NCBI RefSeq assembly: GCF_036924525.1
Contig: NZ_JAZHRU010000001.1
Location: 620,001 to 684,000 of the forward strand
From: Bradyrhizobium sp. AZCC 1719
GTDB taxonomy: Bacteria; Pseudomonadota; Alphaproteobacteria; Rhizobiales; Xanthobacteraceae
Direction: 5' to 3'
Length of the DNA stretch: 64,000 bases
A model generated the notes under the pieces. It saw only the letters and a list, made by a program, of their open reading frames with translations. It did not search any database and had not been told where the DNA came from. The position numbers and the translations under genes were made by a program. Position 1 is the first letter of the stretch. Each line of letters begins with the position of its first letter. Of the stretch, positions 59,122-64,000 are shown piece after piece.

Positions 59122-60861
59122 ATGAGGACGGATCGCGTGGCCAGCAACGAACAAGAGAATTACGAATGCGACGCGCTGGTGGTGGGCTCCGGCTGTGCCG
59201 GGATGTCGGCGGCGGTCACCGCCGGGCACTACGGCCTCAACGTTCTCATCGTCGAAAAGGAGCTGCGCTTCGGCGGCACCACTGCCCGCTCCGGCGGCTG
59301 GCTATGGATTCCCGGCACTTCGCTGGCGAAGGCGTGGGGCATCGAGGAAAGCCCGGAGCAGGCGAAGACCTATCTACGCCACGAGGCCGGCAACAGTTTT
59401 GATGCCGCGCGCGTCGATGCGTTTCTCTCCGCCGGTCCGGAAGCGGTGGACTTTTTCACCAGCAAGACGGCCGTCCAATTCGACATGCCCTTGACCTTTC
59501 CGGATTACCACGCGGAAGCCCCCGGCGGCGCGCAGGGCGGTCGCTCGATGGTGACGCGGCCGTTCGATGGCCGCGAACTGGGCGAGCATATCAAGGATCT
59601 CGGCAATCCCCTCCCCGAACTCACCGTGTTTGGCATGATGCTGGGCTCCGGCAAGGAGATCATCCATTTCATGCGAGCGACCAAATCGCTGACCTCGGCG
59701 ATCTACGTCGCAAAACGCCTGTCGAAGCATTTGATGGACGTGATGCGCCACGGCCGCGGGATGAGCTTGACCAACGGCAATGCGCTGGCCGGGCGGCTGG
59801 CGAAATCCGCGCTCGACTTGAAAATTCCCCTGTGGCTGTCCTCGCCCGTGCACGAACTGATCGTCGAGGACGGGGCGGTGCGCGGCGCGATCGTCGAGCG
59901 CCATGGCAAGCTGATCCGTGTCAATGCCAAACGCGGCGTGGTGCTCGCCTGCGGCGGCTTTCCGCATGATGCGGCGAGGCGCAAGACGATGTTTCCGCAC
60001 GCGCCCACCGGCGCCGAGCATTTTTCGCCCGGCCCTGTCGGCAACACTGGCGACGGATTGCGCCTGGCGGAGACCGCCGGCGGCCGCATCGAGGATACGC
60101 TGCCGAACGCGGCTGCCTGGGTGCCGGTCTCCATCACCGAACGCAAGGACGGCTCCAAGGGCGTGATGCCGCATTTCATCGATCGCGCCAAACCGGGCGT
60201 CATCGCGGTGATGCGCGACGGCAGGCGCTTTGCCAATGAAGGCAATTCCTATCATGACTTCGTGCAGGCAATGGTGAAGGCTGCAAAACCCGGCGACGAG
60301 ATCACCGCGTTCCTGCTGTGCGATCACCGCGCGCTGCGAAAATACGGCCTCGGCTGCGTGCCGCCGTTTCCGATGCCGCTGCGCCATCATCTCGCCACCG
60401 GCTACCTCAAGCGCGGCGCAACACTGGCTGAACTGGCTGATAGAACCGGCATCGATCGACAGGGGCTCGAAGCGACGATCGCCGAGTTCAACGCCTCGGC
60501 CGCGGAGGGGCGCGATCCTGCGTTTGGCAAGGGATCGCGCGCCTATAACCGCTACCAGGGCGATGCGCTGCACGGGCCGAACCCCTGCGTCGCGCCGATC
60601 AAGGACGGACCGTATTATGCGATCAAGCTGGTGGTCGGCGATCTCGGCACCTATGCCGGTATCAAGACCGACGCGCATGCCCGCGCGCTCGACGAACGTG
60701 GCCAGCCGATCACCGGCCTCTACGCCGCCGGCAACGACATGGCGAGCATCATGGGCGGCAACTATCCCGGCGCCGGTATCACGCTCGGCCCCGCGCTGAC
60801 GTTTGGATATATCGCGGGCAAGCACCTCGCGGCAAAGGCTTCCGAGACCGCCACGCGATGA
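59122..60861 (+). CDS. FAD-dependent dehydrogenase (3-ketosteroid dehydrogenase/fumarate reductase family)
   Basis: 579 residues from ATG 59122. N-terminal FAD motif ALVVGSGCAGMSAAVTAGHYGLNVLIVEKELRFGGTTARSGGWLWIPG is that of the flavocytochrome c/ketosteroid delta-1-dehydrogenase group. Further: KRGVVLACGGFPHD, DGRRFANEGNSYHDFV (substrate-side Arg/Tyr region), and the C-terminal FAD motif PITGLYAAGNDMASIMGGNYPGAGITLGPALTFGYIAGKHLA. The last motif is typical of 3-oxosteroid dehydrogenases. Oxidises C-C bonds; substrate unknown. Divergent from the amidohydrolase-Rieske operon. Confidence 0.92.
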   Translation: MRTDRVASNEQENYECDALVVGSGCAGMSAAVTAGHYGLNVLIVEKELRFGGTTARSGGWLWIPGTSLAKAWGIEESPEQAKTYLRHEAGNSFDAARVDAFLSAGPEAVDFFTSKTAVQFDMPLTFPDYHAEAPGGAQGGRSMVTRPFDGRELGEHIKDLGNPLPELTVFGMMLGSGKEIIHFMRATKSLTSAIYVAKRLSKHLMDVMRHGRGMSLTNGNALAGRLAKSALDLKIPLWLSSPVHELIVEDGAVRGAIVERHGKLIRVNAKRGVVLACGGFPHDAARRKTMFPHAPTGAEHFSPGPVGNTGDGLRLAETAGGRIEDTLPNAAAWVPVSITERKDGSKGVMPHFIDRAKPGVIAVMRDGRRFANEGNSYHDFVQAMVKAAKPGDEITAFLLCDHRALRKYGLGCVPPFPMPLRHHLATGYLKRGATLAELADRTGIDRQGLEATIAEFNASAAEGRDPAFGKGSRAYNRYQGDALHGPNPCVAPIKDGPYYAIKLVVGDLGTYAGIKTDAHARALDERGQPITGLYAAGNDMASIMGGNYPGAGITLGPALTFGYIAGKHLAAKASETATR

Positions 60862-61303
60862 ACGGCCCTGCCGGCGGGATCTGATGAGAGAAGGCGCAGC
60901 GACAGTCGAAGCCCCTGCAGCAGCAGAGCTGCAGCACACGTCGGACGCGCCGGCTCGATGTGTCGGCAAAAAAATTCCGGACCAATGTGTGCGACACCAC
61001 ATTGACAATCAACATTTCATGGCGCTCAATTAAAAGAATTATTCTTTATAGATACAACCGCATACCATTTCATTTGGTAGTGGGGCAGGTAATTCATGCT
61101 CCTTCCGCGTACACACAGCCACGCGATCTCATCCGGCAAGCGATCGGGCATGCGCGCGCAGAATTCCGCGCCACGTTGCCCGCTTTGTGATTCAGGCGAC
61201 GCGACGTTGAATCGCAGTGCATGGCGGGCGGCGACCACCCGCTGCGCCGTCCTCTCGATAGCACCAAACTTTAGCAACCCGAAAACCCGAGGGGCTGGCT
61301 TCG
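60862..61303. other. Intergenic region ahead of the patatin-protease unit
   Basis: 442 nt, no convincing gene. From about 60960 to 61090 the DNA becomes unusually A/T-rich for this window, including TTAAAAGAATTATTC, the likely promoter of the downstream unit. Inverted repeat CAATGTG (60983) with CACATTG (60998-61004) lies just before it. Confidence 0.5.
60983..61004. promoter_or_regulatory. Inverted repeat CAATGTG-N8-CACATTG
   Basis: Perfect 7-bp arms in the A/T-rich promoter region upstream of the patatin gene (300 nt before its ATG). Candidate operator; no adjacent regulator. Confidence 0.35.
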
Positions 61304-62440
61304 ATGGTAGACGAACCCGTACAATCCATTGGTGACGAGGCGGCCGAGGGTGGCCCGCAGGACGGCACTGCACTCTGCCTTTCGGGCGGAGGCTATCGCG
61401 CGATGATTTTTCATATCGGCGTGCTTTGGCGCCTCTATGAGACAGGTATCCTTCAGAAGGTGAATCGCATATCGAGCGTCTCCGGCGGCTCGGTCACCGC
61501 GGGGCTGCTCGCCCTCAAATGGAACAGGCTTACCGGGAACCAAACCCCGGACATGCCACTCTTTCGTCAGGAATTCGTCGAGCCGCTGCGCGCGCTCGGG
61601 CGAACGACCATCGACGTCAAGGCCGTCATCCTGGGCCTGCTCCTGCCCGGGCGCGTGAGCGACCGTGTCGTTGCGGCGTATGAGAAGCACCTGTTCGGTT
61701 CGGCCACGCTGCAGGATCTTCCGGACAAGCCGAGTTTTGTCATCAACGCGACCAGCGTGCAGTCCGGCGCGTTGTGGCGCTTCACGAAGCCGTACATGCG
61801 CGACTACCGGGTCGGCGAGGTCCTGAAGCCCACCATCAGACTGTCGAAAGCTGTTGCGGCTTCCTCCGCGTTTCCGCCCGTGCTGTCTCCCGTCGAGATC
61901 AAGCTGAACGATAGCGCGTTCACGCCGAAGTCGGGATCCGACCTGCAGCGACCTCCGTTCACAACGAACGTCGTTCTCTCGGATGGCGGCGTCTACGACA
62001 ATCTGGGTCTGGAGACCGCCTGGAAGCGCTACCGCACCATCCTGGTGAGCGACGCTGGCGGAAAGCTTCAGGCCGAAGAAAGCCCGAAAGCCGATTGGGG
62101 CAATCACGCCTATCGCGTGCTCGATCTCGTCGATAACCAGGTGCGATCCCTGCGGAAACGTCAGGTGATCGATTCCTTCAAACAACATACTCGTTCAGGA
62201 GCCTATTGGGGAATTCGGACCAACATTCTCGATTACGGACTGGCAGACGCCCTGACTTGTCCATTCGACGCGACCATGCGGCTCGCCGAAACGCCCACCC
62301 GGTTGCAAGCCATGGACGATCAATTGCAGGAGCGATTGATCAATTGGGGCTATGCAGTATGCGATGCCGCGATCCGGAAACATTTCCAGTCTGGATTGCC
62401 AGCACCCAAGGATTTTCCCTTTCCAGCATCAAAGGTCTGA
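61304..62440 (+). CDS. Patatin-like phospholipase
   Basis: 378 residues from ATG 61304 with GAGGGG at about 10 nt. Patatin fold with a complete Ser-Asp dyad: glycine-rich oxyanion loop CLSGGGYRAMIFHIGVLWRL at residues 25-44, nucleophile Ser63 in ISSVSGGSVTAG, and the Asp of SDGGVYDNLG at 227. Family enzymes hydrolyse membrane phospholipids. No signal peptide or transmembrane segment, so cytosolic. Stop at 62440 is followed after 2 nt by the protease start, implying strict co-expression. Might be a membrane-damaging effector kept in check, by inference from paired-protease context. Confidence 0.93.
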   Translation: MVDEPVQSIGDEAAEGGPQDGTALCLSGGGYRAMIFHIGVLWRLYETGILQKVNRISSVSGGSVTAGLLALKWNRLTGNQTPDMPLFRQEFVEPLRALGRTTIDVKAVILGLLLPGRVSDRVVAAYEKHLFGSATLQDLPDKPSFVINATSVQSGALWRFTKPYMRDYRVGEVLKPTIRLSKAVAASSAFPPVLSPVEIKLNDSAFTPKSGSDLQRPPFTTNVVLSDGGVYDNLGLETAWKRYRTILVSDAGGKLQAEESPKADWGNHAYRVLDLVDNQVRSLRKRQVIDSFKQHTRSGAYWGIRTNILDYGLADALTCPFDATMRLAETPTRLQAMDDQLQERLINWGYAVCDAAIRKHFQSGLPAPKDFPFPASKV

Positions 62441-62442
62441 CC

Positions 62443-64000
62443 ATGACGGTGCTCATTCCGAGGACCTTGGCCGAATACATTCTGCTTGGACCGACCGGTG
62501 ACCGCCGTCAGCTCCAGGACTCGCCGATTCTGGGCGATGTCTGGATCGCGTATGCGAGCGAGGCTGGACCGCAGGAGCTGCTGATCACACCGTACAAGAC
62601 GAATACAGCAGGCCTCGTCGCAAACTGGATCGATGACGAAGTCGATCACGATCGACTGATGCATAACGCGAGTGATCGCGAGCCTCGAAAAATCGCCTAT
62701 CTGCAGGGTGTAATCGCCGCACGGCTGTACTTCGACGAGGTGCTGCGCGTCATCGTACCGACGACGAACTGGTGGAGCAGCGCGCGCATTCAAAGCGATA
62801 TGGCGGTCTATCTGCAGGCCGCAAGCGGCAGTCAACGCATCAACGCCGTTCTGGATACAGTTCAGGAAATGGCGGAACACTGGAGCGATCCCAAGACAAC
62901 CAAGAAATCGGCCGGAATGCTGACGGCACTCGATCGCTACGCCGCACTCGCCGGCATTATTCTCTGGGCGGCCCAAACCACCACGATCGGCCCCGATGCA
63001 AAACCGGCGGAACTGGCTGCCGCGATCAAGGCAGGAAAAGGCGACATTGCACGCCTGCTGACCGATTTGTTCTCCGAGATTCTCAGTCGCCAGGAACAGA
63101 ACGACGCAAACCAGCGCAAGCAATGGAAAGGTTCGCTCGTCTATCAGGTTTCGCTCAATCGGCGCGCCGATATGGCGGTCGCGCGATCCGTCCCTTCAGT
63201 CAAGGCGGACGCCGCCCGCCTGCTCTTCACGGTCAATTGCGCAGAGATCGCGTGGGCCGTCATCGATTCCGGGATTCAGGGCGATCACATATGCTTCAAG
63301 GATGCGACCGGGAAGGAATCCAGGGTCGTTGCCAGTTTCGATTTCAGCAACTTTCGCAAGATCGTCAACCTCGACAACCTCAGGATCTTCAACGAAAACG
63401 AAGATCCGGAAATACAGCAGGGCAAGCTCAAGCAGCTTCTGCCGGACGGGCACAAACTGCCCGAAGGGCAGAAACTGAAACAGGCCGGCGCCAAGCTGAT
63501 CTCGAACCTCGTTCAATTGTCCAGGGATGCAAGGGCGCAACGCCCGATTCATTGGGAGCTGGTCGAGCCGTTCATCGAAATCAAAGTCGACACGCGCCCA
63601 TCGGTAAGCGATCACGGCACGCACGTCGCCGGCATCATTGGCGCCAGGGCACCTCAAAAGCGAGCCAAGGCCATTGCGGAAGACGACAGGATCGACGGGA
63701 TGTGTCCTGATATCCAGCTGTACGATTTCAGGGTGCTTTCGCAAAACAGCGACGAGAAAGATACCGAATTCGCGATTATCGCCGCCTTGCAGTACATCAG
63801 GCATCTAAACGAGCGCCACGACCATATTTCAATTCACGGAGCAAACCTCAGTCTTTCGATCAAGCACGATGTGCGGAATTACGCATGTGGCCGAACGCCG
63901 ATTTGCGAGGAGTGCGAGCATCTGGTCGAAAGTGGCGTGGTAGTCGTCGCGGCCGCCGGAAACTACGGATTTCAGAGCTTTACGACTACCGATGGTGCGT
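62443..64000 (+). CDS. Subtilisin-family (S8) protease with novel N-terminal region (3' end missing)
   Basis: At least 519 codons; the frame is open at the window edge, so the catalytic Ser is not seen. ATG 62443 directly follows the patatin stop. Residues 1-260 match no domain I know: mixed alpha/beta, no signal peptide, with helices such as LTALDRYAALAGIILWAAQ. The S8 domain starts with Asp275 in AWAVIDSGIQ, then His391 in DHGTHVAGIIGA and oxyanion Asn507 in AAAGNYG. An insertion of about 80 residues between Asp and His is larger than usual. A pair CGRTPICEEC may bind zinc. Probably a cytosolic regulatory protease. Confidence 0.85.
   Translation, partial: MTVLIPRTLAEYILLGPTGDRRQLQDSPILGDVWIAYASEAGPQELLITPYKTNTAGLVANWIDDEVDHDRLMHNASDREPRKIAYLQGVIAARLYFDEVLRVIVPTTNWWSSARIQSDMAVYLQAASGSQRINAVLDTVQEMAEHWSDPKTTKKSAGMLTALDRYAALAGIILWAAQTTTIGPDAKPAELAAAIKAGKGDIARLLTDLFSEILSRQEQNDANQRKQWKGSLVYQVSLNRRADMAVARSVPSVKADAARLLFTVNCAEIAWAVIDSGIQGDHICFKDATGKESRVVASFDFSNFRKIVNLDNLRIFNENEDPEIQQGKLKQLLPDGHKLPEGQKLKQAGAKLISNLVQLSRDARAQRPIHWELVEPFIEIKVDTRPSVSDHGTHVAGIIGARAPQKRAKAIAEDDRIDGMCPDIQLYDFRVLSQNSDEKDTEFAIIAALQYIRHLNERHDHISIHGANLSLSIKHDVRNYACGRTPICEECEHLVESGVVVVAAAGNYGFQSFTTTDGA

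Follow-up and report, generated by a model that had tools for sequence, protein, structure and literature searches.

We analysed a 64-kb window, positions 620,001-684,000, of the genome of Bradyrhizobium sp. AZCC 1719 (7.2 Mb, one contig), near whose end begins an operon for a patatin-like phospholipase, a subtilisin protease of the S8 family and a ComEC-like hydrolase of the metallo-beta-lactamase (MBL) fold. The features are collected in Table 1, in which coordinates past 64000 continue the window scale beyond the window end; this end splits the operon within the protease gene, so that the MBL gene lies wholly outside. A preliminary description, made from the window alone, had proposed a two-gene unit of patatin and protease. 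Indeed, both reading frames and their Pfam families were borne out, as was the gap of 2 nt between them. The MBL gene, however, begins only 11 bases after the protease stop codon, which rules out a two-gene unit. The three genes together are a real, mobile combination that fits a recently published class of protease-gated nucleases.

Table 1. Features of the operon and its surroundings, on the window scale.
Feature	Position	Strand	Basis and remarks
Accessory islet, ~5.07 kb	60841..64000, on to ~65909 beyond the window	+	blastn against three congeneric genomes; empty site
Patatin-like phospholipase, 378 aa	61304..62440	+	ORF, Pfam; Ser60 = 61481-61483, Asp227 = 61982-61984
S8 (subtilisin) protease, 652 aa	62443..64000 in the window, stop 64401	+	ORF, Pfam; Asp275 and His391 inside the window, Ser593 outside
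Conserved N-terminal tip of the protease, residues 21-34 (RRQLQDSPILGDVW)	62503..62544	+	
Propeptide-like domain, residues 42-248	62566..63186	+	beta 44-50, alpha 56-73, beta 84-87 and 90-95, alpha 97-107, beta 233-238
Helical insertion inside the propeptide-like domain, residues 109-225	62767..63117	+	candidate regulatory element
Subtilisin catalytic domain from residue 250, in-window part	63190..64000	+	
MBL-fold ComEC-like hydrolase, 455 aa	64413-65780 (L009:5414-6781), outside the window		profile matches

The patatin matches the Pfam Patatin model with 78.2 bits against a cut-off of 27.7. For its catalytic pair the preliminary description had named Ser63 and Asp227. The latter, part of a DGG motif, is kept in all 37 aligned rows, two of which are the window's own patatin. 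Ser60 and Ser63 are each kept in 36 of the 37; within the S-V-S-G-G pentapeptide Ser60 should be the nucleophile, not Ser63. By eye, neither the patatin nor the protease has a signal peptide, as had been stated, or a membrane helix.

The protease reaches 140.1 bits with Peptidase_S8 (cut-off 21.8), and the catalytic triad of Asp275, His391 and Ser593 is complete in all but one of 71 loci, a contig without the Asp region. Its first ~260 residues had been described as resembling nothing familiar, which proved too strong: a propeptide-like topology with a helical insertion can be made out, with weak matches only when the N-terminal region was modelled separately. Alignments with pro-subtilisin structures begin at about residue 42 (at residue 22 for 3afg) and cover 309-333 residues, compared with 230-268 for structure rows that start at the catalytic domain. 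The pattern used for comparison was the I9-type propeptide of subtilisin zymogens, beta-alpha-beta-beta-alpha-beta and docked on the catalytic domain. The N-terminal ~250 residues look like a subtilisin propeptide interrupted by a helical insertion, and because of this front we read the protease as a putative zymogen. The same region, with its insertion, may carry the trigger-sensing part. Given the weak matches of the separate model, we do not claim a new sensor fold in residues 1-260.

In the MBL protein the catalytic motifs SHxDxDH, GDAR and PHHGS are conserved. The solved structures nearest to a profile of 20 family MBLs are ComEC nuclease domains (E 1.4e-10), with which the family has the PHHGS block in common. 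Between two matched blocks ComEC (9ic4) has 66 residues, compared with 155 positions in the MBL profile, and within this stretch an alignment of 64 sequences places two variable insertions at residues ~114-172 and ~229-262 (eight sequences were left out: four near-duplicates, one near-copy of the own locus and three truncated ones). The motif AS[LIVMA] in loop 1 and the motif A[ASG][YFL]xD in loop 2 each occur in 48 of the 64 sequences, against 13.2 (sd 3.3) and 1.0 (sd 1.1) in shuffles, and the other three of the five loop motifs counted occur in 43, 22 and 48 (shuffles 23.8, 0.3 and 3.0); since the shuffles are blind to relatedness and the motifs were picked after viewing the alignment, these numbers are descriptive. 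The best matches in the defence library are LmuA (171.9 bits), RTasMBL (118.7 bits) and Avs1a (106.5 bits). In the genome search the Avs1a model matches the MBL at model positions 3-107 and 245-381. If model and protein numbering agree, the stretch with the Avs1a cut sites, given as I134 and I234 in a legend of PMC12799240, is unmatched; the protein scan counts three Avs1a-model stretches. When 289 genomes of the class were searched for relatives of Avs1a, the own MBL was the sole match, below the cut-off.

A protein search with protease residues 1-300 yielded 1658 relatives. The scan of genome contigs gave 171, from which we kept 80 loci, 70 of them (L031-L100) family members from Proteobacteria, Acidobacteria, Actinobacteria, Planctomycetes and other groups; unrelated subtilases (L101-L110) served as control, nine of them after L102 gave no match. 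An MBL gene follows the S8 gene in 66 of the 70 family loci and in 65 of the 68 with more than 600 bases downstream, as needed for this ratio; it is absent in L069, L087 and L089. None of the nine unrelated subtilase loci has an MBL, patatin or Tle1-like partner, and by these counts chance neighbours are ruled out. Additionally, the distances between S8 sequences correlate with those between MBL sequences (Mantel r 0.94, 57 loci, 0/2000 permutations; L056, L060 and L085 were left out of the correlations).

The phospholipase behaves differently. In 38 of the 70 loci a patatin of the window's family lies near S8, on the upstream side in 25 and on the downstream side in 13; a Tle1-like phospholipase (PF09994) is near in 11. 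Omitting ten loci without both flanks, we find a phospholipase in 44 of 60: 35 are patatins, within 3.5 kb of S8 and in four cases in pieces, and nine are Tle1-like, the remaining 16 loci having neither. Adjacency of patatin and protease, to be checked across genomes according to the preliminary description, is therefore not rare. Tle1-like identity rests on Pfam for three loci and otherwise on a profile search begun from one of them; the partner counts exclude a different patatin near L042 and one lying ~5 kb away from S8 in L047. Proteobacteria have the genes in the order patatin-S8-MBL and Streptomyces in the order S8-MBL-patatin, while the Tle1-like gene of Sphingopyxis is oriented divergently from S8. 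Thus, the S8 protease and the MBL form the core pair, and the phospholipase is exchanged or absent in many loci. Two loci stand apart in their surroundings. In Skermanella (L069:1760-5972) the family S8 gene is placed between two trypsin-like protease genes, with no recognised MBL, and in L070 (153-1043) a weak HNH match, below cut-off, lies upstream of S8-MBL, with a 377 aa gene without Pfam match downstream.

Around the operon, the flanks are joined without the islet in three congeneric genomes (L121, L122, L123), where the blastn match ends at 60824-60840 and restarts at 65910. These contiguous flanks make the ~5 kb module an accessory insert. The empty site is also seen in congeneric genomes as protein-level synteny, and the three empty-site genomes (G019, G023, G028) hold own copies at other places. 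The GC content of the module genes is 0.56-0.60, compared with 0.62-0.65 in the flanks. The leader, described beforehand as A/T-rich with an inverted repeat, is relatively A/T-rich (GC 0.57 against 0.65 upstream); its repeats of 9-11 nt (82-89% match) are short and imperfect, and we dropped them as a meaningful element. At this locus the closest named relative is Bradyrhizobium sp. LMTR 3, with an S8 protein 97% identical.

Of 197 related genomes, 15 gave a match to the S8 protease; for G011, G087 and G105 this match begins only at about residue 416, so that these three probably hold other subtilases. The MBL occurs in 13 of the 197, 12 of them among the 15 with S8 and the thirteenth being G080. 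Patatin at E <= 1e-30 occurs in 27 of the 197. Loci were defined for 30 patatin sites, and S8 is adjacent at only eight of them, the own locus included, so this patatin family is far from restricted to S8. A class-wide search with the protease matched two of 385 genomes, one being the own genome and the other matching in part. Signs of mobility are thus the empty site, this patchy occurrence (15/197), copies on plasmids and flanking insertion sequence (IS) elements; phage carriage of the unit was looked for and none was found. At what is apparently the same chromosomal site, G006 carries an intact patatin of 378 aa with neither S8 nor MBL (L200:5070-6206), and G080 a decayed locus with patatin pieces and an MBL piece and no S8 (L201:5028-6803); together they look like a decay series. 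The upstream neighbour of the operon is presumably a gene for an FAD-dependent oxidoreductase, and downstream follow what we take, from their sequences, to be a small exported protein and then MdoG- and MdoH-like genes. About 4.4 kb 3' of the MBL gene (L009:11145-13088) lies a gene whose product, judged by eye, resembles a class III nucleotide cyclase and contains repeats; it is probably unrelated.

Relatives of the protease are held by 23 plasmid records, and in six of the eight plasmid regions read the gene after S8 matches the MBL profile. On S. meliloti accessoryB patatin-S8-MBL stands amid IS elements. A Miltoncostaea plasmid carries S8-MBL-DUF2235, and a Paroceanicella plasmid a patatin, a 308 aa protein, S8 and MBL. 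More importantly, on Methylorubrum extorquens pCMU01 (L112:2466-9141) a complete Pycsar system, PycC-E2-PycTIR (PADLOC 731, 285.4 and 306.5 bits), lies 288 bases upstream of S8-MBL, as if the pair had been recruited as an add-on. An R. phaseoli plasmid (L114:255-12228) encodes an LCAT-like hydrolase, a second MBL, an FRG-pYEATS protein, S8, MBL and a SIR2 protein, genes that possibly form a larger system; the R. leguminosarum region L117 comprises FRG-pYEATS, a short S8, MBL and a SIR2-like protein. An S8 relative stands beside thiM and another gene in both R. johnstonii and R. leguminosarum 248. The two regions without the MBL match (L115:5581-8595, L116:5287-8232) are those in which the gene after the S8 relative, beside thiM, fails the profile; for this reason we dropped the reading, based on gene order, that two Rhizobium plasmids carry an S8-MBL pair by itself next to thiM. 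A scan of 108 flanking genes (from an initial 204, of which a script retained 130 and manual thinning 108) matched 64 defence families, of which 25 are shown, with one member each, among them Cas3, PtuA, PtuB, ThsB, PD-T4-6 and mad6; having no control, it carries little weight.

The proximity to known defence genes, which had also been suggested for checking, extends to the cousins of the patatin. Remoter patatins (44-57% identity) were found in two other arrangements, one with a 6A-MBL enzyme and an E2-E1-JAB protein, the other with an MBL and an HExxH protein. The former is seen in L194 (2156-6712) and L195 (3115-7677), where patatins at 44-46% identity directly follow 6A-MBL proteins that score 408.7 and 404.6 bits (cut-off 220); the E2-E1-JAB protein cap2_3 reaches 648.1 bits (cut-off 320) in L195, the locus tested. 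The NCBIfam models matching these two loci name only the MBL and cap2_3 parts, not the patatin. The latter consists of three-gene operons of patatin, MBL and an HExxH (M4-like) protein with almost no Pfam match (L196-L199, L196 resembling the other three by eye). A thermolysin hint of 22.0 bits against a cut-off of 22.4 appears in L198, and none in L197 and L199. The common scheme is a patatin, an MBL and some peptidase-like protein, of which L196-L199 are possibly another undescribed member.

On balance we are inclined to read the unit as a horizontally acquired abortive-infection operon in which a pair of subtilisin protease and gated nuclease is joined by an exchangeable membrane phospholipase. 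This reading builds on the gene content, the intact catalytic residues, the linkage and correlated divergence of S8 and MBL, the lipase exchange, the Pycsar adjacency, the patchiness and the empty site. Of the defence or regulated-lysis system proposed beforehand, it retains the idea of a defence-type module that combines a phospholipase with a protease, probably a regulated one, and not the two-gene form. The subtilisin would be made as an intracellular zymogen, held by the propeptide-like domain with its helical insertion, until an infection trigger releases the lock. By analogy with the trypsin- and caspase-linked relatives treated in the main text of PMC12799240, the freed protease would then cut the ComEC-like MBL protein encoded next to it in both variable loops and so turn a gated pro-nuclease into an active DNase. 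The phospholipase could act as a second, interchangeable killing arm that attacks membrane lipids. The infected cell would thereby kill itself and stop the virus.

The preliminary description had let the protease cleave or control the phospholipase, and with the MBL as an accessory this remains the first alternative, which we regard as unlikely. The close spacing of the two genes here speaks for it, as does that in 11 of the 25 loci with an upstream patatin, where the matched ends of patatin and S8 are 5-28 nt apart. The lone intact patatin of G006 is, as one case, what would be expected if the lipase were inert at rest until activated. However, the constant partner of the protease is the MBL (65/68), not the lipase (44/60), which moreover comes from two unrelated families, and the same patatin family also stands beside E2-E1-JAB or M4-like proteins. 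Additionally, an alignment of 14 sequences revealed no specific insertion in S8-linked patatins compared with relatives linked to other peptidases, which speaks against direct gating of the lipase without excluding it. A protease acting on the nuclease thus appears likelier to us than one acting on the phospholipase, because of the analogy with the systems described in the main text of PMC12799240. In a bolder combination, which we put forward tentatively and hold to be rather doubtful, one self-locked subtilisin zymogen would set free two unrelated killing effectors together, the membrane phospholipase as well as the gated DNase. This would be a protease cascade in bacteria, with a constant MBL around which both the lipase (patatin or Tle1-like) and the peptidase (S8, M4-like or E2-E1-JAB) could be swapped.

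It is quite improbable that the protease is itself the effector, or cuts phage or host proteins, and that the MBL destroys a nucleotide or lipid signal instead of DNA. MBL-fold enzymes are able to hydrolyse many esters, and the S8-MBL pair occurs without a recognised lipase in 13 of 60 loci, yet the nearest solved structures and the common PHHGS block point to ComEC nucleases, and the closest family models are LmuA, RTasMBL and Avs1a. A housekeeping or nutritional operon for lipid or protein turnover, without a defence role, seems very improbable to us. Some S8-MBL pairs do lie between ordinary-looking genes, the two S8 relatives beside thiM have no recognised MBL, and the proteins, lacking export signals by eye, could conceivably serve turnover inside the cell; such an operon fits poorly with the patchy occurrence, the empty site, the lower GC, the plasmid and IS context, the Pycsar adjacency and the kinship of the patatin with partners of 6A-MBL proteins. 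Least probable of all is that the Tle1-like or patatin lipases serve a module for addiction or for competition between bacteria. The lipase that replaces patatin has the catalytic domain of a Tle1-like type VI secretion system (T6SS) effector, but the proteins have no export signals by eye, the constant part is the protease-MBL pair, and no secretion genes were noticed by eye beside the loci read, no search having been aimed at them.

If the preferred reading of a subtilisin-gated nuclease with an exchangeable lipase is true, subtilisins that carry their own inhibitory domain would join trypsins and caspases as proteases that activate nucleases, and DNA destruction would be tied to membrane destruction in one operon. 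The swapping of lipase and peptidase around the MBL gives a testable rule for finding further systems.

Among known systems, the operon has the patatin family in common with CBASS and its CapV-type phospholipases. The patatin scores 12.6 bits with the lipase model (cut-off 200) and 20.7 bits with the PADLOC effector, and we noticed no CD-NTase gene in the operon. The protease belongs to the S8 family like IetS of the IetAS system, with 18.7 bits in NCBIfam (cut-off 900) and 35.1 bits in PADLOC, and no AAA ATPase gene as in IetAS was noticed in the operon. Its best PADLOC match is 'subtilase' (PDLC03014; 143.5 bits, E 3e-42, across the catalytic domain at residues 261-642), a model whose record bears no description or system name. 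As to Lamassu, the MBL matches the LmuA model (171.9 bits); the immediate neighbours of the operon are by eye the oxidoreductase and the small exported protein, a profile search for LmuB and LmuC not having been made. For AVAST type 1, the MBL reaches 161.1 bits against an Avs1a cut-off of 420, and no STAND ATPase was noticed by eye among the listed ORFs, no profile search being aimed at it. The likeness to the anti-phage 6A-MBL systems (NCBIfam NF058523, NF058524) lies in the MBL with a peptidase-bearing protein and in the homologous patatin that adjoins in L194 and L195; unlike there, S8 takes the place of E2-E1-JAB (cap2_3), and the own MBL scores 32.2 bits against 220.

We found no description or name for a patatin-S8-MBL operon in the literature searched, which left preprints and most subscription journals outside. 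The closest published relatives are the gated nucleases of PMC12799240. According to its main text, trypsin- or caspase-linked MBL relatives are pro-nucleases opened by cutting insertions at conserved residues. The cases given are Hachiman HamMAB, AVAST type 1, Lamassu, defence-associated reverse transcriptase (DRT) systems and the Canu caspase-nuclease, and a further radiation with other protease families is mentioned there without naming them; the words subtilisin, subtilase, patatin, phospholipase and lipase do not occur in that main text. Our operon differs from the systems presented there in its stand-alone subtilisin with a propeptide-like domain, in place of a caspase or a trypsin fused to a defence protein, and in the phospholipase often encoded alongside. 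It resembles them in the ComEC-like MBL beside a co-inherited protease (65/68 loci; Mantel r 0.94), in the variable insertions with recurring residues, which by alignment appear to lie at the corresponding place, and in the recruitment of the pair by otherwise unrelated systems.

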